From contig OZ037902.1 of the NCBI GenBank assembly GCA_964035575.1, forward strand, positions 248,001 through 312,000: a stretch of DNA of 64,000 nt, written 5' to 3'. Below are positions 497 through 48,977 of the stretch, in pieces. The translations under genes and the position numbers were made by a program. The notes under the pieces are model-generated. The model searched no databases, was not told where the DNA came from, and was given only the letters and a program-made list of their open reading frames with translations. Source of the DNA: Rhynchopus sp. YZ270_cl-10. Its lineage: Eukaryota > Euglenozoa > Diplonemea > Diplonemida > Diplonemidae. The number at the start of each line of letters is the position of its first letter. The first letter of the stretch is position 1.

Positions 497-528
497 GATG
501 TGAATGTGCCTCTCGTGCACACACATCT
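497..528 (-). repeat. Family C hairpin
   Basis: GATGTG-AA-TGTGC, loop CTCTCGT, GCACA-CACATC. Confidence 0.8.
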
Positions 529-1211
529 TTTGTAAAAGACGAGAATAAAAAAAATCCCGTTCTTCAATCGATGAGATAGGCCTTTGGGAAGCTGGCTGCT
601 GCCACGAATAAACGAAAGGGAAAAGAGAGGGAAGAAGGTGGTAAGATTCTCAAGACACGCGTTCTTTTTTTGAAAAAAGATAATTCCGTTTGAAACATCT
701 CAAAAAATGGATGAAAAAAAAAAGGAATAAAATTCAGATTTTTTAGTTGTGGCAGAAGAGAACAAAACGCTTCTACAAAAATGCACCACCATCTTTCCCT
801 GTAGAGGTAGGTATTGAAACTATAATAAGTCAATACGTGTACAGCTCAGGCTCTCCGCTAGGTACTAAAGTTCTGTTGATTGTCAACAGAACTTTTTGAA
901 AATGGGGAAAAAAAAAAAAAAAAAAAAGTTCTGTTGAGTGGTTTAGACCCGTTCTACTTGTCAAAAAAGCTCAGGAGAAGAAGATATGGAGAGGTGAGTG
1001 CTCAAACGTCCCAAAAAAGTCAAAATCGGGTGTTGGAAAAAAAAAAAGTTGCGTACCGTGCGCCTGCGGCGCAAGCATGTACCCCACCAACGTGGACCAT
1101 CAACAGAATATTTTCAAAATCGGAAATCCTAGCGGAGAGCCTGGTACAGCTCCTACAAAAAAAAAAAAAAAATTAAAAAAAGAGAAAGAGCTGGTCGTAT
1201 ATGATACATCC

Positions 1212-1234
1212 GCCTAAGCTTCGTTGTGCTTAGC
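1212..1234 (-). repeat. Family B hairpin (variant loop)
   Basis: CTAAGC, loop TTCGTTGT, GCTTAG: stem kept, loop replaced. Confidence 0.5.
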
Positions 1235-1403
1235 CAACTACTGGAAAAAAAAATGCGTGAATATATAGCGCTCGGACAAAGGCCAAAAAGTCATTTGGTG
1301 GGAAGCGAGAGAAAAAAGAAAAAAAGAGAGAGAGGAGAGAGATCATGGTGGAACACCAATTAATTTTCTTTTCTTTTTTTTTTTTCTTTTTTTCTTGTTT
1401 TTT

Positions 1404-1452
1404 TGTCGACACAATCCCCTAAGGACCCGCTGGGAAACCTAGGGTATGTACT
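1404..1452. repeat. Family F hairpin
   Basis: GTCGACACAATC, stem CCCTA-CCC/GGG-TAGGG, then TATGTACTC. Confidence 0.65.
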
Positions 1453-1498
1453 CAATTTTTTTTGTCTGTGCAAAACAAATACCACCTGGGGGAGAGGG

Positions 1499-1812
1499 GT
1501 AATACAATACTCCAGTATTGTATTCAACGGACGAGAATAAAAGGGGGCCAGAAAAAAAAAAGAAGAAAAAAGCAGAACACGGCGATGAAGTAAACAACGT
1601 GACACGTGCTTTTTACATGTGCTTTACATGTAACTTTTTTTACATGTAAAATGACATGTATCACATGCAAAATGACATATACGGTAACGTATATTGACCG
1701 TAAAGCCACAAGTAAAATGCCATGTGAGTACATGTCATTTTACATGTCACTGCTCTGTAAAAGGCACATGTCATGTCATTTACTTCACCGTCGTGAAGTT
1801 GAATACAATACC
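1499..1812. mobile_element. Imperfect foldback element
   Basis: Outer arms AATACAATAC/GTATTGTATT, then paired blocks GATGAAGTAAA and TTTACTTCACC, with many ACATGT motifs at the centre. Confidence 0.5.
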
Positions 1813-1848
1813 CCCCGGGTAATGTCTCCTCAACTCATTTATTTTTTT

Positions 1849-1911
1849 GATAAATTGTTGGTAGTGTAGTTGCCTCGGTTGTGTTGCCACAGTTGGGCGC
1901 AAATCTCCACT
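1849..1911 (-). repeat. Family A hairpin, copy 1
   Basis: Outer stem AGTG/CACT with AG/CT inside, then TTGC/GCAA. Preceded on the plus strand by poly-T, so a poly-A tail on the minus strand. Confidence 0.75.
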
Positions 1912-2186
1912 TTTGTTATTTGTACAAAAAAAATCAAACTTTCGTTTGAAAGGGGAGCAAAAGATGCTGGGGAAAAAAGCTGAGAGGGTAGGAAATAGGA
2001 TACAAGGAAGCGCCATCATCTAGGACGCTGTGGGGGAGATGAAGTGAAAGGGGTGGTGGGGGGGGATGCCATTTGGGGACTTACGAGACGGGGGAAAAGA
2101 AAAAAAAAAACGATAAAATTTAACATGCACGGCGAAAACATGTCATGTGCAAAAGACAACGGGAAAATGAAGCAATTGTGATACGA

Positions 2187-2248
2187 TGTAAAAAAGGGTT
2201 GAAATGTGCTAAAAAAAAATATGCACATCTCAGTCGAGCTCATGCGAA
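2187..2248. repeat. Family E element
   Basis: GTTGAAATGTGCTAAAA then CAGTCGAGCTCATGC. Confidence 0.65.
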
Positions 2249-2438
2249 CAAAAACAATCTCTCAAAAAAAAAATGCTGAGGGTTTATGAAAAGCTTATGG
2301 AAAAAAACACAAAAAATACAATGGTTGAGTTATATGACAGGAAGTGTGTCCTGCTGCTGCTTGAATGAAAACACAAATAAAAAAACGCAAATAAAAAAAA
2401 AAGCGGGAAATGCTAACGCTTTAAAAAAGAGAGAAAAG

Positions 2439-2474
2439 TCGATGAACCTAAGCCTCTCCTGAGCATTAGGCGTC
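2439..2474 (-). repeat. Family B hairpin
   Basis: GATGAACCTAAGCCTCTCCTG then AGCATTAGG; stem CCTAA/TTAGG. Confidence 0.6.
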
Positions 2475-2541
2475 TTTAAGTATGTAAAAGAGAAACGGTA
2501 CGGCCTCACAGGCACACACACACACATCTTTTGAAATATTT

Positions 2542-2561
2542 GGGGGGGGGGGGGGGGGGGG
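2542..2561. repeat. Poly-G run, 20 bp
   Basis: Directly readable. Confidence 0.95.
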
Positions 2562-2811
2562 AAACAGATGTGAATTACAGCTGAGAGAATATGCTGAAGG
2601 GACGGAGAATGCATGGAAAGAGTGAATATTTGACTGACCAAACGTACGACGACAGCCCCGGATGAATGAAAAAAAAATAAAATGAAACGGAAAGTTTGCA
2701 AACACCTCTGCGGAAGCAGGCACAAGAAGAAAATTGCGCGGAGCTCACACGAGAAGAAAAAAAAAGCGAGGTGTCTACACACAATTACTCAGAGAAAAAT
2801 AGTAGGATCGG

Positions 2812-2912
2812 GTAGGGTAAAAGTTGTTTCGTTGATTGCACAAATCCTCTTGTTTGAGGGCTGATTTAACGACCGTACCCGGTAATACTATTTCTCCTAA
2901 AGCTTCGTAGGA
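2812..2912. repeat. Family I element
   Basis: TTTCGTTGATTGCACAA ... ATTTCTCCTAAAGCTTCGTAGG. Confidence 0.5.
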
Positions 2913-3085
2913 ATATAAAAATAAAATAAAATAACGGGGGAGGAAGGTACGTTCTCTGTGGGTGGGTAATTTAACCTCATCCCACGAGGGGTTTGGATCA
3001 GGTGAACTGCAGTACACTGCAATTTTTTTTTCTCCAATAATTGCGGACTATTTCATTTGATGAAATATAAAAATTTAAAATAAGG

Positions 3086-3170
3086 TTGAAATGTGTTAAA
3101 ACGCATTTCAGTCGAGCTCAAGCAAAGAGTGGGCCGTGAGTGGTCCGTACCGTAAGAGAACGGAGGTTCA
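3086..3170. repeat. Family E element
   Basis: GAAATGTGTTAAAACGCATTTC hairpin, CAGTCGAGCTCA, then TGGTCCGTACCGTAAGAGAA. Confidence 0.7.
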
Positions 3171-3879
3171 CAATCGAAAAACATAGAACAGGCAGCATGC
3201 CGTTTTAAGGACAAATGAAATGTTTAAAGGGTGATGGGATGTGGGTATTGTGTGGTGAAGTTGACGGCACTGTATCATTGATATCGTGCTTTGAGACCAA
3301 CCCCGACGAGCATTGTTCAGTGAGGTTGACGAACAAAAGAGACCTCCGAACAAATAAAGAAAAAAAAAACGGAACACAAAAAAAATTATTTTGTTTGTTT
3401 ATTTTTTTTTGGCAAATAGGGACGGGGCAGGTATCATCCTATTCGCGTTCACTTGTTTAAAAAACTTGTATGAGTCGAGACGACACCCTTGAGAGGAAGT
3501 GCGACTATGTTTTTTACGGGGTACAGCTGGGGGGGTGGTAATATCTAACCATTTTTGTACGAAGAGAGAAGTACACAAAGAAAAGGAAAGGAGGGGGGGG
3601 AAAAAAAACTATTCTTGTGAGAATAAAATGAGCCTCACTAAAAGCTTTCTTGGAAAACGAGAAGATTGGGGCGAATCGTTTTTGCCAAAAGAAAAAAAAA
3701 AGAATAAATAAATCTGGAAAGTACAAACGCAATTTTTGTGATATCGCCAGGGGGGTAGGTTCTGTACATCCATCATGAAAACGTTAAAAAGAGAAGTTGA
3801 AAGTGCAAAACGCCTTACCGTTCATCGGCAGACCCAGAGGACACTGGTTCCTATGAAACGTTACGAATAAGAAAAAATT

Positions 3880-3912
3880 TAAAGATGAACCTAAGCCTCG
3901 TGCTTAGTCACC
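3880..3912 (-). repeat. Family B hairpin
   Basis: CTAAGC, short loop CTCGT, GCTTAG, then TCACC. Directly followed by a family-D element. Confidence 0.7.
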
Positions 3913-3926
3913 AAACTTTGATTTGA

Positions 3927-4050
3927 CTTGAAATACAAAACCCTCCCCGTGACTTTGTACTTTGGTACATTGCCCACGAACCATACCACGTGCACCTGGG
4001 GGTGGACACCCAAACCATACGGTGCTACACCATTTTCGAGGTTTGACATC
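3927..4050 (-). repeat. Family D element
   Basis: TTGAAATACAAAACCCTCC head and GGGGTGGACACCCAAACCATA tail. Confidence 0.7.
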
Positions 4051-4325: not shown

Positions 4326-4346
4326 CCCCCCCCCCCCCCCCCCCCC
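4326..4346. repeat. Poly-C run, 21 bp
   Basis: Directly readable. Confidence 0.95.
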
Positions 4347-4920
4347 TCCGTTTTGTTTGCCCAAGCCATGTCTCTGCCTCCAGATCTTAATTAACACCAG
4401 AGGTCGAGAAAGGTATAAGATATAGACACAACTTTCTTTGGTTAGTTTTGTTTGGAAACATTTTTTAAAAAAATGGATTGCATGAAGAAAAAACACAACA
4501 CAAGAAGAGCAAAAAAGACTTCGATCTTTTGTAAAACGGGATGAGACAGAAAACAGCGCTATTTGGGGGTGTCGATTTTTTTTTTCTTTTTTTCTTTTTG
4601 TCTTATTTTTTTTTATTTTATTTTGCACAAACCTTGTAAGGAACAACGCAGAAAGGTTCAAAGAAGAGAAGATAATGTAAAGGATGGATATGCTTCACGT
4701 GCATATGATAAGATAATATTAGCCTCCACACTGCTAAACCACCTTCGGGAAAAAAGAGAAACAAGTATAGGAAGTAATCAAACACATTTTTTTTTTTTTT
4801 TTGTGATGATTTTGATGAAATTGCTTTCTGGTACAAAAAAAAAAGTTTTGCAAAGTACAATAAAAATATAACGACTGTTCTGTTTCTTTGCAGAGGGGGG
4901 AGAAAAAAAAAAAAGAAAAG

Positions 4921-4961
4921 TTTATAAGATGATCCTAAGCCTCTCGTGCTTAGTCACCTTA
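4921..4961 (-). repeat. Family B hairpin (type copy)
   Basis: TAAGATGATC, stem CTAAGC/GCTTAG, loop CTCTCGT, then TCACCTTA which extends the stem. Confidence 0.85.
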
Positions 4962-10345: not shown

Positions 10346-10366
10346 AAATAAATAACCCGTTTTACA

Positions 10367-10614: not shown

Positions 10615-10658
10615 AAGTTTTTAAGATAACCCTAAACCTCTTGGTGCTGAGTCATCAA
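10615..10658 (-). repeat. Family B hairpin (degenerate)
   Basis: GTTTTTAAGATAACCCTAAAC then CTGAGTCATC. Confidence 0.6.
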
Positions 10659-10886: not shown

Positions 10887-10893
10887 TTTTTTT

Positions 10894-11079: not shown

Positions 11080-11160
11080 CTTGAAATACAAAGCCCTCTC
11101 ATGACAGTGTACATAACCGGTACACCAGGACCCTCCCAAACCACAAAGTCCTACATCCAT
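11080..11160 (-). repeat. Family D element
   Basis: Head TTGAAATACAAAGCCCTCTC, tail AAGTCCTACATCCATTT. Confidence 0.7.
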
Positions 11161-12480: not shown

Positions 12481-12574
12481 GAGTTGAAATACAAAGCCCT
12501 CTCGCGAACAGTGTACCTTGGTGATATTACTGGTGGACCTCATCGGGATTTGGTGGATCATGCAGTCCTAGTTA
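12481..12574 (-). repeat. Family D element
   Basis: Head GTTGAAATACAAAGCCCTCT, middle CAGTGTACCTTGGTG, tail ATGCAGTCCTA. Confidence 0.7.
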
Positions 12575-14623: not shown

Positions 14624-14713
14624 GTCTTGAAATACAAAGCCCTCTCGTGACAGTGTACCTTGGTGTATGACCGTCTGTACCGGGGGGTGGACACCCAACC
14701 ATTGCAAGCCCTA
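14624..14713 (-). repeat. Family D element
   Basis: Full head and GTGGACACCCAACCATTGCA tail. Confidence 0.75.
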
Positions 14714-15279: not shown

Positions 15280-16471
15280 TAGGGGGTACGACTCCAGCCA
15301 TTTTTTGCGCACGGAAAATTCATTTGGCATTATCTGGTCATCTCCAAGGCAACTGCGGGTGAAAAACACCCTCAGAGTGGGTCACAGGGGGCCTGTGGGT
15401 CGAAAAACGACCCAGAAGCCACCCCAGAATACAAAAAAATGGAAAAAAATAGTGAAAAAACGGCTTTTTTCACGTTTTGGCCACTTTGGGCAAAATAGCG
15501 ATTTTTCGAGAAAAAAATCAAAAACCGGGATATTTTTTGACATCACAAAGCCTCCTTTGGCACAAATATACCCCAAAAGTGGCCTGTGAGTCCATTCCAA
15601 CCTGTTTTGGACATATTTGACACTTTTGGAAGTGTTTTTTTGGTGTTTTTAGGTCAAAAAAATTCCCAAGACGTCCCCAAGACATCCCCAAGACACTTTG
15701 CACACCCCCTGTTACGGTCATATTTTTTTCGTTTTTTTGCCTGAAACCCCCAAAATACCCCTCCCGGACCCCACATAGTCCCGAATATCCATCACACACC
15801 CACTCAGAGTGAGTAGAAGCACCCCAAAAAAAATATTTTTTAAAGCCCTAAAATTGTGCTTCAGTTTCGGCAGCATCCATGTTGAAGTTGAAGGGCTTTA
15901 AAAAATATTTTTTTTGGGGTGCTTCTACTCACTCTGAGTGGGTGTGTGATGGATATTCGGGACTATGTGGGGTCCGGGAGGGGTATTTTGGGGGTTTCAG
16001 GCAAAAAAACGAAAAAAATATGACCGTAACAGGGGGTGTGCAAAGTGTCTTGGGGATGTCTTGGGGACGTCTTGGGCATTTTTTTGACCTAAAAACACCA
16101 AAAAAACACTTCCAAAAGTGTCAAATATGTCCAAAACAGGTTGGAATGGACTCACAGGCCACTTTTGGGGTATATTTGTGCCAAAGGAGGCTTTGTGATG
16201 TCAAAAAATATCCCGGTTTTTGATTTTTTTCTCGAAAAATCGCTATTTTGCCCAAAGTGGCCAAAACGTGAAAAAAGCCGTTTTTTCACTATTTTTTTCC
16301 ATTTTTTTGTATTCTGGGGTGGCTTCTGGGTCGTTTTTCGACCCACAGGCCCCCTGTGACCCACTCTGAGGGTGTTTTTCACCCGCAGTTGCCTTGGAGA
16401 TGGCCAGATAATGCCAAATGAATTTTCCGTGCGTTTGGTCCCAGCCAAAATGGCTGGAGTCGTATCCCCTA
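15280..16471. mobile_element. Long-arm foldback element, 1.2 kb
   Basis: Two arms of about 570 bp (15282-15849 and 15892-16469) are near-identical reverse complements around a 42-bp spacer. The ends read TAGGGG(G/A)TACGACTCCAGCC. The arms differ by a few substitutions and one small indel near the outer end. Both flanks are runs of exactly 17 C. Either the target duplication is TA (Tc1/mariner-like) or it is part of the C run. No gene inside. Confidence 0.8.
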
Positions 16472-16720: not shown

Positions 16721-17046
16721 ACACTACCGCTCTGCTGCGTTAAAAAAAAAATATATGAAAGCTTTGAAAAAAGATGGAACGTGCCGTTCTCGACATATCT
16801 AGCAAATCATACAAGCTGGGGGGTGAAGTCCAACAACTTTACCGCTATTTTTTTTCGTTAGATTTTCTCGTTTGAGCAGCATTAAATGAGCCACACGGGA
16901 CACACCAATATACACACAAAATCTGCAACCCAAAAGAAGACTAATATGGTGTGGCGGACCAGACAATTCCAACCCCCTTTTTGGGCCATTCTTGGCCATC
17001 CAAAACCGCAAAATCCGCCACACCATAAAAGAAAAAAAGAAGCAAG

Positions 17047-17085
17047 GTTTGTAAGATAAACCTAATCCTCTCATGCTCAGTCTTC
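17047..17085 (-). repeat. Family B hairpin
   Basis: TTTGTAAGATAAACCTAATCC, TCTCATG, CTCAGTC; loop carries CTCTCAT. Confidence 0.65.
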
Positions 17086-17097: not shown

Positions 17098-17139
17098 GTT
17101 TATAAGATGATCCTAAGCCTCTCGTGATTAGCCACCTTA
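17098..17139 (-). repeat. Family B hairpin (tandem with previous)
   Basis: TAAGATGATCCTAAGCCTCT, CGTGATTAGCCACCTTA. Confidence 0.8.
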
Positions 17140-17582: not shown

Positions 17583-17623
17583 GAGTTGAAATACAAAGCC
17601 CTCTCGTGGCTGTGTACATAAAA
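17583..17623 (-). repeat. Family D element (head only)
   Basis: GTTGAAATACAAAGCCCTCT, CGTGGCTGTGTAC. Confidence 0.65.
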
Positions 17624-17929: not shown

Positions 17930-17972
17930 GGTTTATAAGATGACCCTAAGCATCTCATGCTTAGTCACCTTA
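17930..17972 (-). repeat. Family B hairpin
   Basis: CTAAGC, loop ATCTCAT, GCTTAG, with flanking TAAGATGA/TCACCTTA. Confidence 0.8.
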
Positions 17973-18455: not shown

Positions 18456-18505
18456 AGAGTTGAAATACAAAAAGCCCTCTCACGATAGTGTACCTTATGA
18501 CCAAT
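18456..18505 (-). repeat. Family D element (head only)
   Basis: Has a two-base insertion in the AAA run; loop CTCTCACG. Confidence 0.65.
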
Positions 18506-25065: not shown

Positions 25066-25092
25066 GGATGAATATGCCTCTCGTGCACACAA
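25066..25092 (-). repeat. Family C hairpin
   Basis: GGATGAATATGCCTCTCG then TGCACAC, 20 nt below the IFT139 stop. Confidence 0.65.
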
Positions 25093-25112: not shown

Positions 25113-28100
25113 TTAAGGTCTCAATGATGCTCTTGCCTGTGAAAATAGAGGGGTATTTTTTTCTTTTTTTGAAGAATTGTTGGAGTAGTGTAGTTGCCAC
25201 CTAGGCAAGCTCCACTGTCCGTAAAGTCAACTCATGCAATGAGCGTCGGATCGTGTTTTTTTTTTTTTTTTTTGAGCGATTTGTAGTGGTCGTTCTGCAT
25301 ACCTTCTCCAATATGTCCTTCCGGATCTTCGGGTACTTCGGGTGAGCGTCAAGCACCTTTTGCGTAACGTCGATGGCACTCACGTACTTCTTTGCCTTAA
25401 GGTAGTTGAAGGCAAGCTTGTACCCAATGCCAGGGTCGCCTTCCTTTACTAGCCGCCAAGCGTTCTGTGTTAAGGTGTATTGAATGCTGTGCGATCCCTT
25501 CTTACTATGGCAAGATGAGTTTTACCCAGGGGGGTGCAAACATAAAAAAAACAAATATACAGCAACGTATTGTTGCTGATACGATGCATCAACCACACAG
25601 CCAACCTCCTTCGGCATAGGTACGGCATGACCCACATACCTCGTAGCAGTCTGCTGCGTCTCTGTACGACTGTTCCTTCTCAAAGATGACACCCATGTAC
25701 TCCCACGCCCGGCAGCACGACTTGTTCGCCAGGAGACACTTGCGGAGGAGGTCCTGCAGTAAAGGAAGGTGGGTGCGCTGTCACAATGCATGCCGACATA
25801 CCTGCGCCAGGTCGTACTTCCCACCGGTGATGTGGATGTCTGCAAGGAGCAGCCATGCACGTTCGAACTCTTCCGCCTGATATTTTATTTTTATTTTTCA
25901 TAAATTGTTGGAGTAGTGTAGTTGCCTCGGTTGTGTTGCCACAGTTGTGCAATCTCCACTGCCCAAAAAATTTTGTTTTGCCAAACGACGCCAATAACCC
26001 ATACCTCCTCCTGTGTGTACGGTGCCTTGGCCACACGCTTCAGATGGTTTCTTGCCTTTGGTGTGACCTTCATGATCTGCAACGCTGTTGCCATCCCAAC
26101 AATGCAAGGCACGTTAACATGCTCGGTGTTCACCTGAGAAGTTTGGGGATTTTTTTTTGCATCATCTTATTACATACCTCAGCATCGTCACCACCAGTCA
26201 TAATCTCGTGGAAGGCGCTGAGTGCTTGGTCGAGGTCTTCCTTCCCACGCTTTGCGATCTTGACATAGGCTTCTAAAATGCGTTTCTTCTCTTTGTCCTG
26301 CACATCACGCAGCAGCTTCTGCGCCCATTTAATGTTGTCCGACTGCGGCTGTTCGTCTCCCGCCTCGGGGTCTTCCAGCTGGTTGTCTGGGTTCAGGTAT
26401 ATTTCTATCATGTGACAGGTACATTGCTCTTCCCATTTGTTGTCTTTAGGGGACCGTCCTTTCATGAATTCACTTAAGGCCTGCCGAGGGTTGTTTGTGT
26501 AGCGGTGGTAGAGCCCTTTTGCGTAGCGGAGACCAGGGTCGGATCGGCGGGAGTGGTTTTCCGCTGAGGTGAAGAAGCGGGGCGCTTCAAAGAGACGGCC
26601 TGCACGGCGGAGGAGTTGGATGAAGAGGACCAGGGCTTCGTAGTTGCCTGGCTTCTTTTCGAGGAGCTGTTGGAAGTGGTACGTTGCATCGTCATATTTA
26701 CCCTTGCGGAACATTAATTCGCCAAGCATCATACTCGCCTCTTCGTGCGCGGAGTCGACCCTTAGAAGCGCGTTTGCCTGGTGTTCGCATCCTTCAAGAT
26801 CCCCTTTGTCTCGGTACAGCTTCGCCAAGGCAAGCATCGACTTTGTGTTGCTTTCGTCCTGTTTAAGTGCCTCATTGTAGTAGGTGACTGCCTTATCGAT
26901 TTGCTTTTGCTTTCTGTTGTATTCGCCAAGCTCGACGCAGATGTTCGCTCCTGTGGTGCGTTGTTGCTGGACATAGTCTGGGGCTTCTCCTTTGATTTTG
27001 TTGAGGACAATGCTTTGGAAGACTCTTGCCTGGATCAATGCGTCGTTCGCCTTTTTGTAGTCCCCCTGCGAACGATGCACCTTTGCAAGAAGGAGGGTCG
27101 TCTTGACGTCGTCGGAGATGCTCTGCACATCCTCGGAGGACTTCGCCTTTTCCTTTTTTTGAAGCGAGTTTTTCAGTTCTCTCTCTGCGTCTGCGTATTC
27201 ACCTAGCTTCCAATACAAAGACGCCAGGTCATGCCGCAGACACAACCTATTTGGCTCAGCCTTCACCGCATTTTTGTAATACTGAATTGCCTTATCATAG
27301 TCATGCGTTGTGATAAACGCGTTTCCAATTTTTGACGCCATTTCTGCGTCATTTGGATCCAACGAACGCGCCTTTTCAAACGCCTCAATCGCCTTTTCTG
27401 GCTCCTGAATAGACATATAGGCCTCCCCAAGGAAGAGATACGAGGCAGCAGTGGGGAACGCCTCGACCAACTCTTCGTAGCATTTTGCGAAGGCGCGCTT
27501 ATTGGAACGGACGTTGAGGTATATGTTGGCAAGGTGTGCCTTCGCCTTCAGGAAGTACGGCGAATCCTGCGACACCGACCGGAGCATCGCAAGACCCCGC
27601 TCTACGTCCTTCTTCGTCACCACCATGGCCTGCGCAATCACCACCCTCCCCTCTTCTCTGGTACCCCTGAACATCCCTAGGGCATCGGATATGGTCTGTT
27701 CTGCCGCAGCCTGGTCCTTCTTGCGAAGGTGTACTTGAGCGAGTTCCAGATGGATGGCAACGTGGTCTTGGACGTTTAGGGGGCGGTATCTCCGTCCTTG
27801 GACCTGTTGTTGGGTGAGGGTGGCTGCGTGCTCGAGGTCCTTCTGAGCATCGTCGTAGCGTCCAATGGCGGCGGCGACTCTTCCTTTAAGGAGGTTGTAT
27901 TGCGGCCATTCGCGGACTTCGAATTCCATAGTGCATTGTTCAAGGGCCTGTTGCGTTTGCGCGAAGTTCTCTTGGTAGAAAGCGATCTGTGCTGCCAGGA
28001 GATGTGCCTCAGCAAAGGTGGGGTCTGCACGAATGCAAGCGTTGATGCCGTGCTGCGACTTCTCCAGGTCGTTCTGGATGAAGTCGATGCGGGCAAGAAG

Positions 28101-29755
28101 GAGCTGACCCTCGAGACTCCCTTTGACATGGCGTACCAGCATTTCAAGGGGTTTGCGTGCTTTGTTCGCGACAGTGCTTGGTGGGTCGGTGGCAGAGACG
28201 GGTTCGGTCGGGCAGTGCTGAAGGTATTCGCGGACAATGGCGAGGAGGAGCTGTGGGTTGAAGGCCTCGTAGAATTCATAGCTCGCGACGCCGTTGCAGA
28301 CGCGGGAGTGGATTGCGACAGCCTCGTCGAGGCTTTCGATGGAGCCCGGCTGGTCGCGGTGCTTGCGCCACTTCATGAGCGCCATGAGGTAGCACAGCTC
28401 TGCGGGGCGTTCGGAGATCTGCATTTGGTGCAGGAATTCGAGTTGCTGTTCAGCGTCGTCAAGACGGCCGAGCATGATCTGTGTGCGGATGATGCCGTGC
28501 AGGGCGCCTAGATTACCTGTGGCGGAGGAGGTGGAGGTGGAGTGGAATATGTTGTGAAAATAAGTCGGTAATTTCGAATGACATAGCGGTGGATATGTGT
28601 GGTACCGTGAGTGGTAGGTGGGTGTTTGTTGTGTTTAAGTCTTGCCATACCATCATCCAACTCAAGGACCTGTTTGTACGCCTCGAGCGACTTCGCCCAC
28701 TCCCCCGCGAGGGACAGCTGGTAGGCCTTTTCGCTCATGTAGTCTGCGTTGCTGGGCTGCAGCTCGCAGGCCTTGAGGATGAGCGACATGGTGTGTGTCA
28801 GCAGGCCTGGCGTCACTGCCAGGCGTGCAAGCGTCTTGGACGTGAAGGCGAAGAGCATGTGTGTCTTGGGCTCCGTCGTCTCGAGCGCTTTGTACAACTC
28901 CCGCAGGTTCGACACTGCGACGGTGGACTGCTTGGAGTCCTCCGCCATGAGGTAGAGGTTCATCACCATCAACGCCTGCACATTGTGCGGATCGGACTTC
29001 AAGATCTTCTGCACTGTGTCCGCTGCTTGGTCCCATTGCCCCTTTTTGATCATAATCTTTGCCTTCTCAACTTGGACTGGCGTGACTATGTCTGCATTGG
29101 CTGGGAGCGCTGCAATGATGGAGTTGAGGATGTGTATTGCCGCAGAGAAGTTCTTCTTGAGGTCGAGGTACGCCACCTTCCCGAGCAGTGCGTCGGTGTG
29201 GTTCGCTACCCCGGCAGGCGCTTCGACAGCTTTGTCGAAGTTGGAGATGCTCTTCTCCACAAAGGCAGAACGGTTCGACGTCAGGTTGATCCACCCCAAC
29301 AGTGAAAGCGGGTTAAGGAAGTCATCTGTATGGTCCGGCGACGCACGCTGACACGCATCACGCGCCTTGACATGCTCGCCCATGATCCAATAGAAGGCGG
29401 CCAGCTGCAGCCACGCAATCGACGTCGCGTTTTTCTCGTCAACCATCATCCGCGTCTCCAGCTCATCAATCGCATCCTGGTCGATCTGTCTCTGGCTTTT
29501 CAATGCATGAATCTTTCCAGCAATGACAGCAACACTGACCTCACGCTTGCCATCCGCGCTGGTATAATCACGCATCGCCTCTGTGAAGGAGCCCTGCAGG
29601 GCGACGCTCACACCACGCCAGAAGCGGAACACAGTGTGCTCGCCAAGCACCTCAAGCTGCGACTGTGCTGCGTCCTGCATACGGTGCAGGAGGCCTTCAC
29701 GGGCGTAGTATAGAATCAGATCCATGGCATCCATTTCGGAGAGCCGTTGGGCCAT
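25113..29755 (-). CDS. IFT139: Intraflagellar transport protein IFT139 (TTC21)
   Basis: Seven exons: 29755-28651, 28516-26178, 26133-26005, 25876-25802, 25753-25640, 25464-25303 and 25136-25113. All introns are GT-AG, the joins are in frame and give 1315 residues, close to vertebrate TTC21B. The product is a TPR superhelix; in other organisms this family is part of the IFT-A complex that drives retrograde transport in cilia. Family landmarks are VFRFWRGV near the N terminus, [13 protein letters not shown] after intron 1, [15 protein letters not shown]-like [30 protein letters not shown] and [14 protein letters not shown]. The last exon is 24 nt and encodes ARASLRP plus stop, the conserved family C terminus. 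Introns 3 and 6 each contain a family-A hairpin; intron 2 is only 44 nt. The ATG at 29755 is preferred to 29812 because the intervening codons are a C/T tract. Confidence 0.96.
25171..25220 (-). repeat. Family A hairpin, copy 8, in IFT139 intron 6
   Basis: Best short stem: AGTG-AG-TTGCC, loop ACCTA, GGCAA-CT-CACT. In gene sense it is followed by an A-rich run just before the 3' splice site. Confidence 0.8.
25899..25961 (-). repeat. Family A hairpin, copy 9, in IFT139 intron 3
   Basis: Long type, occupies half of the 128-nt intron, with its A-rich tail next to the acceptor. Confidence 0.8.
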
Positions 29756-30061: not shown

Positions 30062-30152
30062 ATGCACCCGAACCTCACAGCCCTCTCGTGACAGTGTGCC
30101 TAATGGTGGACACCCAACCATGCAGTCCTACATCCATTTCGTGGTTTACATC
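30062..30152 (-). repeat. Family D element
   Basis: Variant head AACCTCACAGCCCTCTCGTG; tail matches the copy at 42963. Confidence 0.7.
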
Positions 30153-30411
30153 TAATTTAAAAAAAAAACGTAGGAGGGGGGTGGTGTCTTTTGAAATGTT
30201 TGGAGTGTGTTTTATTTTTTCTTGTTGTCGTGTAGATCACCTAAGGATGGGATCACTATGTGTGCCTTTTTTTTTTGTTGCCTTTCGTTTTCTATGCTAG
30301 GGGACCTAACCCATGCAATACAAAATGACCGGAGTACTCAGCACCGCCCATTTATTCCTTTGGTGAAATAATTGGGCGAAATATAGAAAAGTTTTTTTTT
30401 ATTATTTTTGA

Positions 30412-30455
30412 AGTACAATGCCTTCCTCTCGTGGCGCAGATGTACCGAATTAAAT
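30412..30455 (-). repeat. Family D element (head only)
   Basis: GAAGTACAATGCCTTCCTCT, CGTGGCGCAGATGTACC; directly upstream of a family-H element. Confidence 0.6.
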
Positions 30456-31917: not shown

Positions 31918-31946
31918 ATGAACGTGCCTTCTCTCGAGCACACAAT
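31918..31946 (-). repeat. Family C hairpin
   Basis: GTGC, loop CTTCTCTCGA, GCAC. Confidence 0.6.
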
Positions 31947-33086
31947 ATGGCATAAAAAAATGCTGATGTGGGGGGAAACAGCGATGTAAACAAAGGAAGA
32001 CTGGACTCAACGGGCACAAGGTAAGGGGGAGCTGTTAGAACGTGCCAGGGCCGCTTCGAAACGCAAAAAAGGAAGAAAAAGACAAAAAGGGGGTAAGGGG
32101 TTATGTGCGGGGAGAGCTTTTGATGACGAAAAAAACAAAAGAGGCTGATGACGGGATTTCAATGTGGCAAAAAGACGAAACATACATTCATATACTTACG
32201 ACTAAGAAACAAAAAAAAAAATAAACCAAAAAAACCTTTGACACGCCGCAGTTTTTCTGTATAAGCGACACTCAACAGCTGCTGGGCACGGGCGAACCCG
32301 GCCCGCAAAGTGCGTTCGACGACCTGATGAGTCTCATGTTTCTGCAAATTCCCATTGAATATCTCTAGCTACAGTCTTCATCGATCCCAGAGCCAAGACA
32401 TCCACCGATAAGTGCAGTTGTTGTCGCATTAAAAAAAAAAGACGAGATTTTCTTCCCTCGCGTTATTTTGCCGTCCCATGGGAGTTGGTAGGGGAGGGGG
32501 GCGATGGCTTATCGCACCCTTCCCTACACAACCAATGAATCATCTTTCCCAAAAAAAACTACAACCAGAACGACCCTGTATTGAATCAGGAAAGCCGCCA
32601 CTTTGAAAAGGGGTTCTGGCCTGAAAAAAAAAGAAAAAAACAGCACATCTACCAGAACAAAATAAAGCCCCCAAAAGAAAAAAAACTGTTCGCGGATTGC
32701 AGCAGGTGGAAGAGGAGACAGAATAACGATAGGGCAAGACGAAGGGGGGGAGAACGATAATGTACAAAAAAAACGGAGGAGTTGTGTGTGTCTGGGGAGC
32801 GAGGGTCGAGAAGAGAGAAAAAAAATCAAATCAACGCTAGTGTAGCGCTGGTTCTCCTAACCTCGCCACCCACCCCACCCCACACACACACACACCATCC
32901 ATATATACACTGAATCTCCACTCCGCTTCCCCACGCTTGACCGGCACTCTCTAACTCGCGCGTTCGCGTACTGTTGATTGGGGCAATACATTGTAGGGTA
33001 GACACATGCTTTGTTGAAGCTCAGGGAGGGGGAGAGGGGAGATTGAGGGGGGGTGGGTGCGGCTAAAAAGTATTTGAAAAAGGTTT

Positions 33087-33129
33087 GACTTGAAATACAA
33101 AGCCCTTCTCGTGAAACAGTGTACCTAAA
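33087..33129 (-). repeat. Family D element (head only)
   Basis: CTTGAAATACAAAGCCCTTC, TCGTGAAACAGTGTACC; followed by a family-G element. Confidence 0.65.
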
Positions 33130-33186: not shown

Positions 33187-33763
33187 GTATTTTCATCATA
33201 TGCAATCAATAAATTGATAGTATATGGTGAGGGATCAACAAAAATGGTCCCATCTTTCTTTTTATGTTGTGTGTTTTGCAAAACGTAGAAAAGAAAAGTA
33301 AAATGCTTCGTGCACAAGTTGAAACTTCAGTAGATTGGTTTCTGATATTAACCCTGTTTCAGTCCTAAGAATCATACAGTTGTATTCAAAAGGGTGGACA
33401 TCTTCAGTGATTTCCCTTTAAATGGTGGGTGAATATCGTGAAACCGATGTTCGTGTGAACATTTGGTACCTTCTACTTCAGTTTTTTGTTTCGGGAATAC
33501 ACAAAATACAAAAGTTTTGTTTTTCTTTTTTCTTATTCCTTTCTCTGTCCTTACTGGATGTAATGTCTGATCACCAGGAGGAAGAGTAACCTAAAGAGTC
33601 TTGGTCTTGATGGCTGCCGTGTATACGTAAAGTATTCCGTGCAATAATTGCTACCAATCCAAACAAATACCAACACATCCTGTCTGTGTATCAGATAGAA
33701 AACCTCAGCAAACACACAAGAAAGAGAAATAAAATAAAAGTAAAAAATAGAAAAGTGAAAAAC
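33187..33763. repeat. 577-bp direct repeat, copy 1
   Basis: Matches 34875-35451 at a constant offset of 1688 with one substitution seen (G to T in a T-rich run). The 1.1 kb between the copies is non-coding. LTR-like spacing, but no TG start or primer-binding site. Confidence 0.8.
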
Positions 33764-34874
33764 ATACTGAATTTTCTGGACTTAGTAGTTCGCCGTCCAA
33801 GCAATGATTAAAACCAGTTTAATCATCCATTGTCCATTGTATTGAAACACCTACACAAAGACTAGAGTAGTACAAAGAGATAGCAAAACGTGCATTGCAA
33901 ACAATTTAATATGTGTCCTGGAGTCTTAGTCTCAAGGCTATTGTCCCTTTAAAAATGGGAAAGCTAAGATGCCCACCAAGACCAAATCGCTCCTGCGAGA
34001 AAAATACTCATCACTAGTGACATAGTACGCGTTGAGTACAACCATATAAACTGCGTCGTGGACATTACCATTGGTAAACCACGACCAAATTACTACTGCG
34101 ATATACCTATTATCTTCGTTCTTTTTTTTTTCCAAAGTTTTGCGGTTTTTGTAGTAGGCCTACAGACTGCACAGCTTACCCAGGGTGTGGCAATGTAATA
34201 CATTGGTCTGACGTCTCACTGAAAGGGTCAAGTACGAGGTCTAGTCCCTTCCAGTGGTGAAAAAGAGTTTTTTTTCTTTTTATTTGGTTTGTTGAAAAAA
34301 AGTAAAAATAAAAGTGGTGTTTGTTTGTGGGAATTCTTTGAAATAGGACCTTTATCTAGATTCATTGGCTTCATGAACATATATAGCCTAGAATCGCTCG
34401 CTTATTTTTTTCAGAATGCACTGAGCTGCTTCTGGTAGTCTTTAACGTTGACACCATAAACGGACACATTTTTTTTATTGGGGTTTCGGTGTCGTCAACC
34501 TACTTTAAATAACCTACTTGCTCTCCCTTGTTATTATATCATTTTTTTTTTGGTCTCTTTTTCTGCTGTTTTTTTTTTTTTTTTTTTTTTTAATTTTGAT
34601 TTCTTTTTTGACTGTTTCAAAGAGGTAGGGAGGGGGTGGGGTGTAGTGCGAAGTTCACAGGACAGCTGTATTGTGTGCTTCGACTTTCTGTTAACTCCTT
34701 TGTAATTATGAGTAAACAAAGCATAGTGCAGCAGTAGAATATATCTATAAATATAAACTAGTTTGCACTATGTGTTTAGCTTTTTAGGGCTAATGTACTA
34801 GAGACCATTCCGCAACATACTCTAAGCGAGGCTCAGTTTTTCACAGCATGTCTGGAGGCACTTGTAAATAAAAA

Positions 34875-35451
34875 GTATTTTCATCATATGCAATCAATAA
34901 ATTGATAGTATATGGTGAGGGATCAACAAAAATGGTCCCATCTTTCTTTTTATGTTGTGTGTTTTGCAAAACGTAGAAAAGAAAAGTAAAATGCTTCGTG
35001 CACAAGTTGAAACTTCAGTAGATTGGTTTCTGATATTAACCCTGTTTCAGTCCTAAGAATCATACAGTTGTATTCAAAAGGGTGGACATCTTCAGTGATT
35101 TCCCTTTAAATGGTGGGTGAATATCGTGAAACCGATGTTCGTGTGAACATTTGGTACCTTCTACTTCAGTTTTTTGTTTCGGGAATACACAAAATACAAA
35201 AGTTTTTTTTTTCTTTTTTCTTATTCCTTTCTCTGTCCTTACTGGATGTAATGTCTGATCACCAGGAGGAAGAGTAACCTAAAGAGTCTTGGTCTTGATG
35301 GCTGCCGTGTATACGTAAAGTATTCCGTGCAATAATTGCTACCAATCCAAACAAATACCAACACATCCTGTCTGTGTATCAGATAGAAAACCTCAGCAAA
35401 CACACAAGAAAGAGAAATAAAATAAAAGTAAAAAATAGAAAAGTGAAAAAC
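34875..35451. repeat. 577-bp direct repeat, copy 2, followed by poly-A
   Basis: Same sequence as copy 1. Directly followed by about 23 A residues, as expected of a retroposed 3' end. Confidence 0.8.
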
Positions 35452-36038: not shown

Positions 36039-36078
36039 GTTTACAAGATGACCCTAAGCAGTGGGTGCATAGTCACCT
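36039..36078 (-). repeat. Family B hairpin (degenerate)
   Basis: GTTTACAAGATGACCCTAAGC and TAGTCACCTTT flank a changed loop. Confidence 0.65.
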
Positions 36079-36108
36079 TTAAAAAAAAAAGAAGAAAAAA
36101 ACTTGAAC

Positions 36109-36139
36109 GATGAGAAAGCGCCTCTCGTGCACACACATC
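36109..36139 (-). repeat. Family C hairpin
   Basis: GATGAGAAAGCGCCTCTCGTG then CACACACATC. Confidence 0.65.
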
Positions 36140-42345: not shown

Positions 42346-44168
42346 TTACGATTGGGATTGCAGACGGATGGTTTCGGCCGCCATAATCTCCTTCTGCTTT
42401 TGCGCGTAGTTGTAGTTGTCGAGGAGACCTGGTGCGGGCATGTGTCCAAGCTCCACAGGGAATCCGATACGTGAACGTCCGACCAGCTGTGCGTCGGTCC
42501 AGCTCATTGCCGACACATCCTCTTCTTCTGCAGGTGCGAATGTAGGGAACGGCGGTGCACCAAAGAAGTAGTCAAACTTCCTGACCTTCGTGTCGCACAG
42601 AGAGACCATGGATCCGAGAGGCCCGGGGATCCTCCCCGAGACGTAGAGCAGCTGGTTCTTGATGTCGACTCTGTGCAAGAAGATGGTGTTCGTGCGCATC
42701 AGCCCGCCCATGTGTCCAGGCATCTTGGCTCCCTTCGGCGTGCGCCCCCATGCCTCTGAAGTGTTCGTGGACCCACCACGTCTGTGCCACGCCTTACTAC
42801 GCTTGGGTCCGTACCGCTGTGGCCCTCCCTTGAATCCCCAACGTGCCATGACACCCTGGAAACCTCGTTCCGTTGTTCGCGAGCGGATTTCGAGCTGTGT
42901 TGTGCGATGGTGGGCAGGGAAGAAGGGAAGAAGGGAAACGGGGTGGTTTGAAAGAAAAGTAGAGTTGAAATACAAAGCCCTCTCGTGAACAGTGTACCTT
43001 GGTGCATGACCGGTTGTACCAGAGGTGGACCAACCCATGCAGTCCCACATCCATTTCGTGGTTTACATCTGATAAAAAAATGAGGACTATTTAGCACCAA
43101 CTTCGAAGCATAAGCCACAAAAACAAAGGGGTTTTTTGATCCAACTATAACATACATGCTGCCCTGGCACAAAATGCCTTACGTCAAGCTTTGTCCCCAC
43201 AGGAATGAACGCGTCTTCTGTGATCCTGAAAGACTTTGACGCTTCCTTTGGAGGCACACCTGCCTCGATGCAGCGCTCATGCAGGGGAGAGCCTTCCTTG
43301 AGTGTTATGTTCCTCGCGCCTACGGTGATTGCACTGAAGCCGTCGGACTCTATGGTGTGGTGGCCGATGACGTGATTTTCAGGCACCCAGAGGATGTAGC
43401 AGTTGTATTGGTTACCGAAATCGTCGATTTGTGTCGTCTTGCCGACCTTGTAGCCGAGCATGCCCCCACGCACTGAGTACTCGAAGTCGTACTCCCCGAA
43501 GGGGGTCGGCATCATGTCGAATGTCAGCTCGGGGTGGTTGTGGTGCAGCTTCTCGTTGTACGCAGCGGTATCCTTGTCACGCTCGTTGATCTCGCCCGCC
43601 ACCTCATGCGAGGCAATCCCTGGGTCTGTCTGCCACAGCGGACTCTGCACCCGCCCCCCCGGATACAGAAACCCCCACGGGTTGCTCGCAACGCTGTTGT
43701 ACCCAAAGTTGTCTCTACTGAAGAACCCACGGTCGACGTGGTATCTCATGCTGAAGGAGTACGGCTCGTAGGTACCCTTGTTGAACCATTCGTTGTTCAG
43801 CTTTCCCTTCTTGATCTGTGGTGGGTTAGGAGTTAATAGGAAGAAGAAGAAATACGTAGACGTTAGCAGTTGCCTGTGATGCTAAAGAAAGGAAAAGGTT
43901 ATAAGATGATCCTAAGCCTCTCGTGCTTAGTCACCTTAAAGAAAGGCGCGGGGGGGAAAGGTGTAAGATGATCCTAAGTTCGTGCTTAGTCTGGTTAGTC
44001 TGATTAGATTATTCTTTGGGTATAGTGTGATTAGTCTTGAAGAATATAAAAAAAAAAGGGGGGCCATACGATAAAACTCCGTCGGGTCAAGATTCCTGCA
44101 AAACGCCTTTGCGACTGAACCTTAGAGCGAAGTGCCTGCACAACGACATCGCACTGAGAGGCCTGCAT
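42346..44168 (-). CDS. MRPL3: Mitochondrial large-subunit ribosomal protein uL3m
   Basis: Three exons: 44168-44070, 43815-43156 and 42894-42346, all phase 0, giving 435 residues. Exon 1 encodes 33 residues with a basic, Ser/Arg-rich stretch (QSQRRFAGILTRRSF) typical of a mitochondrial targeting peptide. The uL3 core begins with LGYKVGKTTQIDDFG in exon 2 and continues in exon 3 with RGFQGVMARWGFKGGP (263-278), KMPGHMGG (310-317) and NQLLYVSGRIPGPLGS. The KMPGHMGG loop corresponds to the part of uL3 near the peptidyl-transferase centre. An N-terminal extension of about 150 residues precedes the core. Introns 1 and 2 contain two family-B hairpins and one family-D element. An AG lies 12 nt above the ATG. 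The exon 1 assignment rests on a strong GTATGG donor, an open frame and the presequence character. Confidence 0.92.
42963..43073 (-). repeat. Family D element in uL3m intron 2
   Basis: Longest copy: head, TGACCGGTTGTACCAG, GTGGAC/GTCCCAC stem, tail CATTTCGTGGTTTACATC. Confidence 0.8.
43899..43939 (-). repeat. Family B hairpin in uL3m intron 1
   Basis: Core identical to the copy at 4921. Confidence 0.85.
43961..43992 (-). repeat. Family B hairpin in uL3m intron 1, second copy
   Basis: GTAAGATGATCCTAAGTTCG then TGCTTAGTC; shortened loop. Confidence 0.7.
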
Positions 44169-46567: not shown

Positions 46568-46655
46568 TAGGTCTTTTGGGTCTTGTTTGTGTTACCCTGA
46601 AAAGGTGTTTCTTTGGGGGAAGAGGAAGAGGAGGAGGAGGAGGAGGAGGAGGGTG
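46568..46655 (-). promoter_or_regulatory. Pyrimidine tract and AG before the ALG6 start
   Basis: Minus strand: about ten TCC units, CCCCC, then CCTTTTCAG ending at 46597, 29 nt above the ATG. Acceptor-like, as before the Hsp70 and PG-rich genes. Confidence 0.5.
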
Positions 46656-47447
46656 GTGGTGAATCGGTAGTAAGGAAGGAGAAGAAAGAGGGAGAGAGAG
46701 AGAGAAAAACTCACATCTGAACGCCCCCCATCAGACAGACCCCACGACGCACCACAGTCTCAATGCACATCAGCAACACCCGACCAACTGAGAGACAATG
46801 TGTGGTACCACCGGATATGGGGGTATTGAGAGTTCGAGAGATAGGTAACCAACCTGAGAGAGGAGTTGACACAAAACAGGTAGAGGGGGTGGGTAGGGAA
46901 AAAGCTATGGGAGGGGAGGGAGCTACGTTTCTATTGAGAACCTATAACGACTCGACACACCATTTAGGAAACACATGTGGTATGGCAAATCGCACTGCCA
47001 CAAGAGAGATGAAAGGAACAGAAGGGACAGTAGAAAACCACACAGCAACGCACAGCTACTATTGTTTCCTGTGCAATACACAGGTAATTTCGTTTCGCTA
47101 TTGTGAGAGTTGCAGGAGGATATAACATGAACAGAGAACGGAGTCCTCCTGTGTGAGTACCGAAACTTCTGAGTTATATTCGTTCAGTGCACAACATAAA
47201 TAAATAAAAGTAAGGATGCTTTGACAAGAGTAGGCTTCACGAAAGGACACATGAACACAACAGAATCTCTTGAGTACATGGACTGTCTCAGTTTCTTCTT
47301 GTTGTGTCATAGATTATTTTATGATAGCCAGTAGAACGTAGTAAAGTATGAGAAGCGAACCAGATCAAAAAGTAAAACAAAAAGAGTTTCACACACTAAA
47401 AAATAATAAATGAGTAAGAGGAATCTAAAAAAAAAGAAAAGAAAGGT

Positions 47448-47522
47448 ATTTTTCGTTGATTGCGCAATTAACTGTTGGTGAATTGGCGGCGTTCCTTCTT
47501 ATTTCTCCCTGAAAGCTACGCT
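47448..47522. repeat. Family I element
   Basis: TTTCGTTGATTGCGCAA ... ATTTCTCCCTGAAAGCTACGC. Confidence 0.5.
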
Positions 47523-47721
47523 TATGGGATTTAAAAAAAAAACAGAGAAAAGAGAACAATACGTTTAAAAAATGTGGATTTCACAGGGAAACACATCGTA
47601 TTTTCTTCGCACGGTCCCCCGACCCAGCGGCGACGCCAATTTTAGTCATTATTATTCTTGTGGGTAAGGACGCACTCCGTGCGCATCCTTGCCACTCAAC
47701 AATAATTGAGGGGAACAAAAG

Positions 47722-47784
47722 AAATGCAGGAACCTCCGACTGACCCACTGTATGATGTCAGCCATCCGGATGAAAGCACAAAAA
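47722..47784. repeat. Family G element
   Basis: AATGCAGGAACCTCCGACTG ... GCCATCCGGATGAAAGCAC. Confidence 0.7.
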
Positions 47785-48886
47785 AGAGTTGCAGTATGTA
47801 TTGAGCTACCTGCAAACAAACACGGTAATACTTGGGAAAAAAACAGAAAAACTATACAAACACGCCACGCGACATAAACCCAGCTCCTGCGGGGGAGGCG
47901 GACCGCAGAGCCATGAGCATCCTCTACCGTGAGACGCCATGCACACCTGAGCTTGGTCAAAAGAGGGAGGCAAAAAACGTTGCCTGTACACGGCGTCAGA
48001 AAGAAGCATGAAGACAGGCTTCGCAGGTGAACCGCCCTTCCGTCACCCAAAGACATGCCTCCCTGCACATCAAAAACAGAAAGGGTGAACAACACCTTTT
48101 GAAGGAACCGCAGTGCGGAACACTCCAAAAAGGGTAGCACGGAGCCTTGGGATATATCTGGTACAGTTTGATGCACCAGGTCATCCAGACAGAAGCGTCC
48201 ATGAACCTCGGACACATGCAACCTGACACCAGACATGGGAAAGGTCGAGACGTGTCAAATAGCTCCTTCCACATGGGGGAGGGGACGGGAAGGGGAGCAT
48301 GAACGGCTAGAGAAACACTCGTACAGATATCTACGTGAAAGAAATCACAACGAAACCTTTGGAACGGGTGCGGTGTGCACAGCATTCAGTAAAAGGCCTC
48401 AGCACACATGGTAGCTGGCCGACTCTGCCACACTCTTATCCTGGATTTTCTTGACTTTTTCTTGACTTTCAAAAGTCAAGAAAAAAGTAAGAAAAAGTCA
48501 ATAAATATCGTTTTCCTGACTTGTCCAGACTTTGAAAAAGTCAAGAATAAGGTAAAAATTGGGTGTCTTGATTCTGTCACAGTCAGACAGACTACCATAG
48601 CATGAAAAAAGTCAACAAAGAGAAAGAAAAAAAGAAAAGATGAAGAAGCAAAGTCGAGAACGGAGTGTGAAAAATATTGATACGATTGATGAGCGTGGAT
48701 GCAAAAAAGGTGACAGACACCTTTTGCACCCAGACACAGGGGTTCTTTCTTGGGGCTTCCATGTCCCGAGTGCAGCTGTTAGAGCATGCTGAACTATTAT
48801 GGAACCGTGCTGATGCGTGAACAAGAAAATAATTTATAAAGAGAGAGAAAAAGAGAAAAAGTTGTCAAAAAAAAAATTTTTTTTGA

Positions 48887-48926
48887 CCCAAAATACAAAA
48901 CCCTCTCGTGTCAGAGTGTACCTAAA
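48887..48926 (-). repeat. Family D element (head only)
   Basis: CCAAAATACAAAACCCTCTC, GTGTCAGAGTGTACC. Confidence 0.6.
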
Positions 48927-48941
48927 AAAGAACAGTTGAAA

Positions 48942-48977
48942 GATGAATAATATTGTACCTCGCGTGCACACACATCT
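48942..48977 (-). repeat. Family C hairpin (GCGA loop)
   Basis: TGTACCTCGCGTGCACACACATC: on the gene strand the tetraloop is GCGA instead of GAGA. Confidence 0.7.

Follow-up and report, generated by a model that had tools for sequence, protein, structure and literature searches.

Hairpin repeats and genes of the window

The window analysed here, a 64,000-nt stretch of Rhynchopus sp. YZ270_cl-10 (Diplonemidae; assembly GCA_964035575.1, contig OZ037902.1, positions 248,001 to 312,000), carries dispersed short hairpins of three families, B, C and D, which share the loop ACGAGAG, and family B is the 3′ untranslated region (UTR) of a long interspersed nuclear element (LINE). Genes with domain matches to HSP70, IFT139, ALG6/8, DUF4116, PDZ and ribosomal protein L3 are encoded on the minus strand of the window, the domain scans having taken minus-strand frames only. 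The gene strand was also called from a hexamer model and from long frames (56 sense and 11 antisense), for which the training set was taken from the assumed sense strand. Two 100-kb stretches of contigs C1 and C8 were sampled alongside the window, giving 264 kb in all, while genome-wide counts refer to the complete assembly (152.4 Mb in 126 contigs).

The word CTCTCG, which spans the loop as read on the plus strand, occurs 36 times in the window (27 on the plus and nine on the minus strand), compared to 15.2 +/- 3.6 in shuffled sequences, and a count of 36 was reached by 0/100 shuffles. Hairpin copies were located by nhmmer with one profile for each family, and C matches overlapping B matches were merged. 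The window holds 24 distinct copies, namely ten of B, ten of D and four of C, and all 24 read on the minus strand; the first-pass annotation of this DNA had proposed three hairpin families with this loop on the gene strand, and both the places it named and the orientation were borne out by the profile search. A further 17 copies are found in the C1 stretch, all on the minus strand, and 28 in the C8 stretch, all on the plus strand, so that 69 of the 82 loci obtained after merging lie in the three sampled regions. Pattern searches of the genome returned 7,022 B-like, 1,696 C and 770 D matches (two, none and none, respectively, for the reversed-pattern controls), although the stringency differs between patterns, and when 10-mers are ranked by the number of distinct places they occupy in the 264 kb, low-complexity words excluded, words of B and D come out on top. 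None of the 69 copies falls within a coding segment of the model, all being in noncoding DNA, and their distances to exons are those of random noncoding positions (downstream median 1319 versus 1305 +/- 245).

All of the following coordinates are on the minus strand. Among the B copies of the window, that at 4926..4960 is intact and corresponds to the LINE 3′ tail, while a second intact copy at 43903..43937 has the 10-bp repeat CCTTTCTTTA on both sides. The copies at 43962..43991 and 3878..3912 have a shortened loop, the latter being located immediately 3′ of a D copy, and the diverged copy at 17044..17082 carries the loop UGAGAG, that at 17937..17971 the loop AUGAGAU. At 36045..36079 the loop is lost (ACCCACT) and the stems are retained. 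The remaining B copies are those at 17104..17138 and 10623..10658 (diverged) and a fragment at 2441..2461 (E=5e-4). The C hairpins are found at 497..527, 25067..25091, 36109..36139 (immediately 5′ of the B copy at 36045) and 48942..48976; the last of these has a GCGA loop, as the first-pass annotation had reported.

Family D is represented by one full-length unit of ~110 nt at 42962..43070, with its hairpin (42967-43000) at the end, and by hairpins at 14629..14661, 12486..12519, 17588..17620, 11083..11115 and 18462..18496 (both with the loop UGAGAG), 33092..33127 (loop longer by one base), 3930..3963 (loop CGGGGAG, preceded by the full-length 5′ end), 48892..48924 (immediately 3′ of the C copy at 48942) and 30076..30101 (partial match). 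Two weaker matches complete the inventory: a D-like hairpin at 30408..30445 (E=0.06), in which pairing is retained by eye, and a C-like hairpin with a remodelled loop at 31918..31944, which had been noted earlier and is present, though weak (E=0.9). The earlier estimate that about 20 copies keep C-GAGA-G was too high, as only half of the copies in the window (12/24) retain the strict form, or 14 when the weak copies at 30445 and 31944 are counted.

Stems and loop of the three families

The consensus hairpins are AAGGUGA-CUAAGC-ACGAGAG-GCUUAG-(GA)-UCAUCUU for B, AAGAUG-U-GUGUGC-ACGAGAG-GCACAU-U-CAUCUU for C and AGGUACA-CU-GUC-ACGAGAG-GGC-UU-UGUAUUU for D. Their stems had been described as unrelated, and this holds for the inner stems of B and C, which differ, whereas the outer stem AAGRUG/CAUCUU is common to the two families and their 3′ flanks are similar. 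In hand-aligned consensus arms, standard pairs are formed at 13 of 13 positions in B (bulge excluded), 12 in C and ten in D, whereas arms swapped between families give only 7-10, and two-sided changes between families are found at 6/13 arm positions, with the loop identical. The hand alignment was used for these counts because the MAFFT alignment (31 references and seven typed rows, drawn from a set of 52 copies with C forms added) misplaced the B bulge. Folding of B and C is clearly better than that of shuffled sequences (z of -4.14 and -4.05, respectively; 0/200 shuffles as good), and the stem of D is weaker, as first described. The predicted fold agrees with a GAGA loop closed by C-G with a bulged A, except that the longer form of D folds as a hexaloop.

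The LINE behind family B

A genome search for reverse transcriptases gave 150 scored hits, 27 of which were grouped by score into one family, the hairpin LINE, with an open frame mostly of 1462 aa. For four of its members (two on contig C9 and one each on C3 and C14; frames of 1462 aa, one of 1124 aa), a listed B hairpin lies ~2.4 kb downstream of the hit on the same strand. The 3′ ends of all four are built alike, the protein ending in ...AAEAVR or ...AAEAMR, followed by the stop codon TAA, CGAATATGAT, the hairpin, ATAAACTTTTC and then unrelated pyrimidine-rich DNA, with a gap of 10 nt between stop and hairpin in each of the four. These copies are nearly identical along the ~550 nt read. In the one copy scanned, the frame contains an APE-type endonuclease domain (PF03372; E=1.5e-13) and a reverse transcriptase domain (PF00078; E=1.8e-24), and its sequence is related to the L1 and R2 proteins of solved structure. 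Because a frame with both endonuclease and reverse transcriptase ends just before the hairpin, family B can be identified as the 3′ UTR of an autonomous LINE.

Families C and D

Five of 20 exact C copies that were fetched have upstream sequence recalling the end of the B LINE (CATCATCCC..., GCGATAACGA), and C is probably the tail of a sister LINE. Approximately nine of 28 D copies, judged by eye in the alignment, start at AGATG, ~75 nt before the hairpin and after a T-rich YAG, two of these nine representing one duplicated region. No common sequence was found further upstream in the 28 copies, the duplicated pair excepted. The constant 5′ end, with nothing common beyond it, suggests that D is a SINE-like unit (short interspersed nuclear element) of ~110 nt, and its mobilisation by the hairpin LINE is putative. 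A small RNA gene was also considered and rejected, no Rfam family reaching its gathering score in the window except 5.8S rRNA (31 further lines fell below).

Truncation, junctions and paired copies

When a 4.7-kb LINE stretch was compared with the sampled DNA by blastn, 31 pieces were recovered, 30 of which reach the 3′ end and none of which is antisense; 25 lie in the three gene-oriented regions and six in loci oriented by their own hairpin. The 5′ starts of the pieces span positions 4540 to 4667 of 4705, ten being upstream of the hairpin, 15 at its base and six just inside. The majority of copies therefore comprise little more than the hairpin, being cut off at its 5′ base or close to it, and represent insertions of ~47 nt. 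One insertion site could be compared with its empty state, since the filled locus L015 has three empty paralogues. The insert consists of (C)GAATATGAT and the hairpin and is flanked on both sides by TTTTTTT(C), a T-tract repeat of 7-8 bp, with a 4-nt difference beside the left junction; the paralogues without the insert have the T-tract as well. A D copy at window position 33126 (W 30875) was rejected as a second empty site, its flanks failing to rejoin cleanly.

The surroundings of B copies are rich in T (49% in the 15 nt before and 54% in the 20 nt after, versus ~30% in noncoding sense DNA). Nine pairs of copies within 120 nt of each other occur in the three regions, where 3.6 are expected and the maximum in 300 draws is eight, and from this excess it may be inferred that the T-rich tails of existing copies serve as sites for new insertions. 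A recurrent block like CCTGCGTCCCAGAGGCGTTTGCACTATCAACTTC, followed by a pyrimidine tract, is also seen upstream or downstream of several B and C copies (e.g. L041 and L049) and is possibly a retroposon tail lacking the hairpin.

Strand orientation

In the three sampled regions, 69/69 copies are sense, and the probability of finding 0/69 antisense copies where 30% are expected is 2e-11, copies being treated as independent. Among the listed copies, strand concordance within 50 kb is complete at 207/207 (137/137 for B and the nearest other B, 58/58 for D and B, 12/12 for C and B), and within 100 kb the concordant and discordant pairs number 165 and 1, 75 and 1, and 17 and 0, respectively, as wider limits take in strand switches; these pairs, which are not independent, were typed by hand from ~100 places per search, mostly on contigs C1-C14. 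For 15 of the 27 hairpin-LINE members, orientation could be tested against a foreign marker, and 12/12 agree within 430 kb, the markers being a hand-typed part of the same listings with a 31-mer of contig C3 included. Other LINE families, eight in number and defined by hand from score and frame length, lie on both strands, with 18 elements on the same and 13 on the opposite strand among those within 150 kb of markers. By frame length, same and opposite counts are 3/4 (1364 aa), 0/1 (1322 aa), 1/0 (1320 aa), 1/2 (1862 aa), 4/1 (1747 aa), 3/3 (1505 aa), 2/2 (986 aa) and 4/0 (1597 aa). In noncoding DNA, the sense strand has T runs over A runs at 1.3-1.4:1 and pyrimidine over purine tracts at 2-2.5:1. 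Because this T-tract preference is too weak and other LINEs lie both ways, we infer that insertion is tied to the direction of transcription or replication.

The customary first explanation of an orientation bias is that both orientations insert and selection then removes the antisense copies, for example where these disturb splicing or polyadenylation in polycistronic pre-mRNA. There is precedent for a sense excess in the SIDER retroposons of Leishmania, which are ~4:1 sense in gene clusters (PMC2689281). Here, however, antisense copies number 0/69 and antisense LINE pieces 0/31, the four near-identical LINE copies are all sense, and members with a marker within 430 kb are sense in 12/12 cases (11/12 without the 31-mer marker). 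Since near-identical copies are already sense and other LINEs occupy opposite strands (the 1364-aa family in three and four cases), although those elements are far larger, selection is disfavoured, and we regard it as an unlikely cause of the strand lock, though one to be taken seriously.

Slightly less probable still is a lock set by the direction of replication forks rather than by transcription, with forks leaving a central origin co-directionally with the genes. The arm-wise pattern of the listings, in which minus copies lie to the left and plus copies to the right, would be accounted for in this manner, but contigs C1 and C2 each switch strand three times, for which several origins would be needed. 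We consider it possible, with rather less than even confidence, that the hairpin LINE retrotransposes in the sense orientation only, nicking or priming on the transcribed template strand or a nascent hybrid, and that the ~47-nt hairpin is its minimal unit, which would be among the shortest retroposons.

Several other observations concern orientation. On contigs C4-C14, the listed copies of the left part are on the minus strand and those of the right part on the plus strand, which suggests two gene arrays diverging from a central region. The 31-mer of C3, which resembles AAGGTGGCACAGGACGAGAGGCTTTCATCTT, has the outer arms and the loop word of the hairpins and no good inner stem by eye; its sites (e.g. 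350203, 501111, 1054495, 1212870 and 2007759 of G000:C3) show the same change from minus to plus strand along the contig, going from left to right. Another sense-biased repeat, ACATGCGGGATAGCTTGTAACATCGAACATAACCCCGTTAC, occupies at most ten distinct places in the 264 kb, with a mean per 10-mer of 7.2 sense and 0.1 antisense occurrences.

Decay of the genomic copies

Members of one family preserve their loop no better than their stems. Conservation in B (27 copies) is 0.921 for the loop and 0.929/0.966 for the stems, and in D (23 copies) 0.795 for the loop and 0.900/0.935 for the stems, one B copy of 28 (39 nt long) and one D copy of 24 (with a deletion) having been left out. With both B stems fixed, the loop is exact in 73 of 100 sites listed. 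A conserved loop on freely changing stems, from which the first-pass annotation had argued for an RNA structure recognised through its loop rather than a mere DNA repeat, is found between the three families, B alone among these being a demonstrated LINE tail, and not within them, the loops of the aligned B and D copies being at least as variable as the stems, an outcome that the annotation itself had named as refuting its reading. This suggests that selection, if any, acts on the source elements and not on the deposited copies. Recognition through the loop is probably right for the source elements, given that B is a LINE 3′ UTR, that changed but paired stems surround one loop and that the ZfL2 LINEs discussed below provide a precedent, and it does not extend to individual genomic copies. 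As loop and stems decay alike, or the loop even faster, the sites are noncoding and the distances to exons are random, the genomic copies look like decaying retroposon tails rather than a maintained host RNA element.

The contrary proposal, that the hairpins are host RNA elements of introns or outrons, read at the loop by a protein, spread by retrotransposition and retained for their function, is very unlikely. All copies are indeed noncoding and on the sense strand of gene arrays, the pyrimidine-rich stretches after B and D resemble 3′ splice regions, and one D unit lies within a predicted intron, but the exon distances given above match random noncoding positions, loop decay equals or exceeds stem decay, and the empty paralogues of L015 already have the T-tract. 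A role as splicing or polyadenylation signal was rejected, the copies showing no preference for the neighbourhood of exons.

Introner-like elements, which would make introns with their own splice sites, are brought to mind by D units, since these start after a T-rich YAG and contain GTAAAC. In the L3 gene, however, the GTATGT and CACAG of the predicted intron lie outside the D unit (one gene, judged by eye), and this origin is highly improbable. Inverted repeats of DNA moved by a transposase, like miniature inverted-repeat transposable elements and with RNA structure irrelevant, would fit a short palindromic unit and the direct repeat at one site, yet this is scarcely credible for a hairpin that forms the 3′ UTR of a reverse-transcriptase element and whose copies are anchored at the 3′ end, variable at the 5′ end and fixed in orientation.

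Proposed mechanism and points against it

Very probably, then, the hairpins are the 3′ tails of non-LTR retrotransposons, bound through the loop by the element's enzyme, inserted in locked sense orientation and left to decay. By analogy, the hairpin LINE fits the "stringent type", in which the enzyme reads the loop of the tail. The enzyme would bind the tail RNA via the ACGAGAG loop, with its GAGA closed by C-G and its bulged A. Known LINEs and the junctions seen here point to a nick in the A-rich strand, facing a pyrimidine tract, as the place where reverse transcription would start. The nick in the template strand, or access to it, would depend on transcription or on co-directional replication. 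Later copies may insert into the T-rich tails of earlier ones, giving rise to head-to-tail pairs, and the inserted copies appear to decay with the loop not favoured, as is seen within B and D.

A number of results weigh against this interpretation. The D hairpin folds weakly (z of -1.72 and -1.84, with 18/200 and 13/200 shuffles as good), and the whole D unit folds no better than shuffles (z +0.99). The loop varies in 27 of the 100 listed sites with fixed B stems, eight of which share a recurrent 8-nt form, ACAGAGAG. No autonomous LINE was found for C or D. For family C, the upstream similarity to the B LINE is weak, the scores being reached by 18, 18, 49, 168 and 190 of 1000 shuffles, and tblastn of two LINE proteins on the 20 C loci gave no match; by eye, none of the listed C and D copies (first 100 places each) lies just downstream of any of the 150 reverse transcriptase hits. 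The model does not account for the many copies that begin at the base of the hairpin. Only one clean empty site was found, and junction repeats in T-rich flanks are not significant overall, the observed mean being reached by 45/200 permutations for B, 8/200 for C and 29/200 for D. Three of the 15 testable LINE members disagree in strand with their markers, which in all three cases lie at distances above 600 kb, and agreement of the C3 member depends on the related 31-mer 6 kb away, its nearest B, C or D marker (~310 kb) being opposite.

Comparison with known systems

SIDER elements are characterized by a 79-nt signature and an A-rich 3′ tail, whereas B copies lack an A-rich tail, the following 20 nt being T-rich as given above. 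They resemble the hairpins in that they are short remnants of retroposons, present in thousands of copies in polycistronic gene arrays and found in excess on the sense strand (PMC2689281). The SIDER copies of 3′ UTRs are described as exclusively sense in the abstract of that paper, while its Table 1 gives 27-64 antisense copies per set (PMC2689281); in contrast, antisense copies number 0/69 here.

The UnaL2, ZfL2-1 and ZfL2-2 elements are similar to the hairpin LINE in combining an endonuclease and reverse transcriptase with a short 3′ stem-loop (PMC4176376). In the ZfL2 LINEs of zebrafish, retrotransposition is lost when the tail stem-loop is deleted or swapped, whereas the stems are exchangeable (with roughly half the rate retained in one such exchange), it being the loop that is specifically recognised; LINE tails also occur on SINEs (PMC4176376). 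The Rhynchopus element differs in its euglenozoan host, its C-G-closed GAGA loop with bulged A and the absence of any antisense copy seen, as well as in the extreme shortness of its 3′ UTR, in which the stop is followed by only ~56 nt, mostly hairpin, and no tandem 3′ repeat unit is seen in the four copies. In human L1, orientation is likewise biased by transcription at insertion, but the bias is of opposite sign, being directed against sense insertions via transcription-coupled repair of events on the template strand (PMC5717806). The genome of Diplonema papillatum consists of 52% repeats and has long one-strand gene arrays (PMC10161547). Its dispersed repeats, LINE and jockey-like genes and commonest dispersed motif of ~6,000 copies recall the situation here, and the word "hairpin" is absent from the main text of that paper (PMC10161547), though a match to its repeats is conceivable. 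Loop-read LINE tails are already known, while searches of open-access papers showed no euglenozoan representative that combines this loop with such a sense lock.

Other features of the window

In the ribosomal protein L3 gene, the predicted intron that holds the full-length D unit (42895..43155, minus strand; GTATGT...CACAG) was delimited from reading frames, with splice sites and L3 motif identified by eye, and separates an upstream exon (43156-43833), for which the domain scan matched no domain family, from a downstream exon (42346-42894), on which alone PF00297 was found (E=1.8e-5). The IFT139 gene (26130-29755, minus strand) consists of two frames, the short interval between which is probably a single small intron, and no hairpin copy was found inside it. 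The IFT139 product shows 65-76% identity to the eight best matches, whereas identity is 56% for a protein of Eutreptiella and 40% for one of Trypanosoma brucei. The 5.8S rRNA match (32266-32416, minus strand; 84.7 bits) is full length and isolated, the 18S and 28S families remaining below gathering score in the window.

Two inverted repeats are also present, one perfect with 542-nt arms and a 42-nt spacer (15308-15849 and 15892-16433), the other with 153-nt arms that are 99% complementary and 2 kb apart (49479-49631 and 51661-51813). A 2350-aa frame at 52788-59840 (minus strand) is composed mostly of head-to-tail 15-nt units (five residues) in a region of strong G/C strand skew, the opposite strand of which carries a 1475-aa frame. 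A noncoding direct duplication is nearly identical between 33190-33760 and 34870-35440, and the sense-oriented C1 stretch has a third copy, around its position 15968.

Implications for the biology of diplonemids

The hairpin tails explain the most widely distributed 10-mer words of the sampled 264 kb and add a lineage to the loop-read LINE tails. Their sense lock provides a natural system in which to study the influence of transcription or replication on target-primed reverse transcription, and the hairpins can be used as strand markers to map one-strand gene arrays in these little-studied marine protists. If the LINE does retrotranspose in sense orientation only, it would have sprinkled ~47-nt hairpins by the thousands into the introns and gene spacers of its host.

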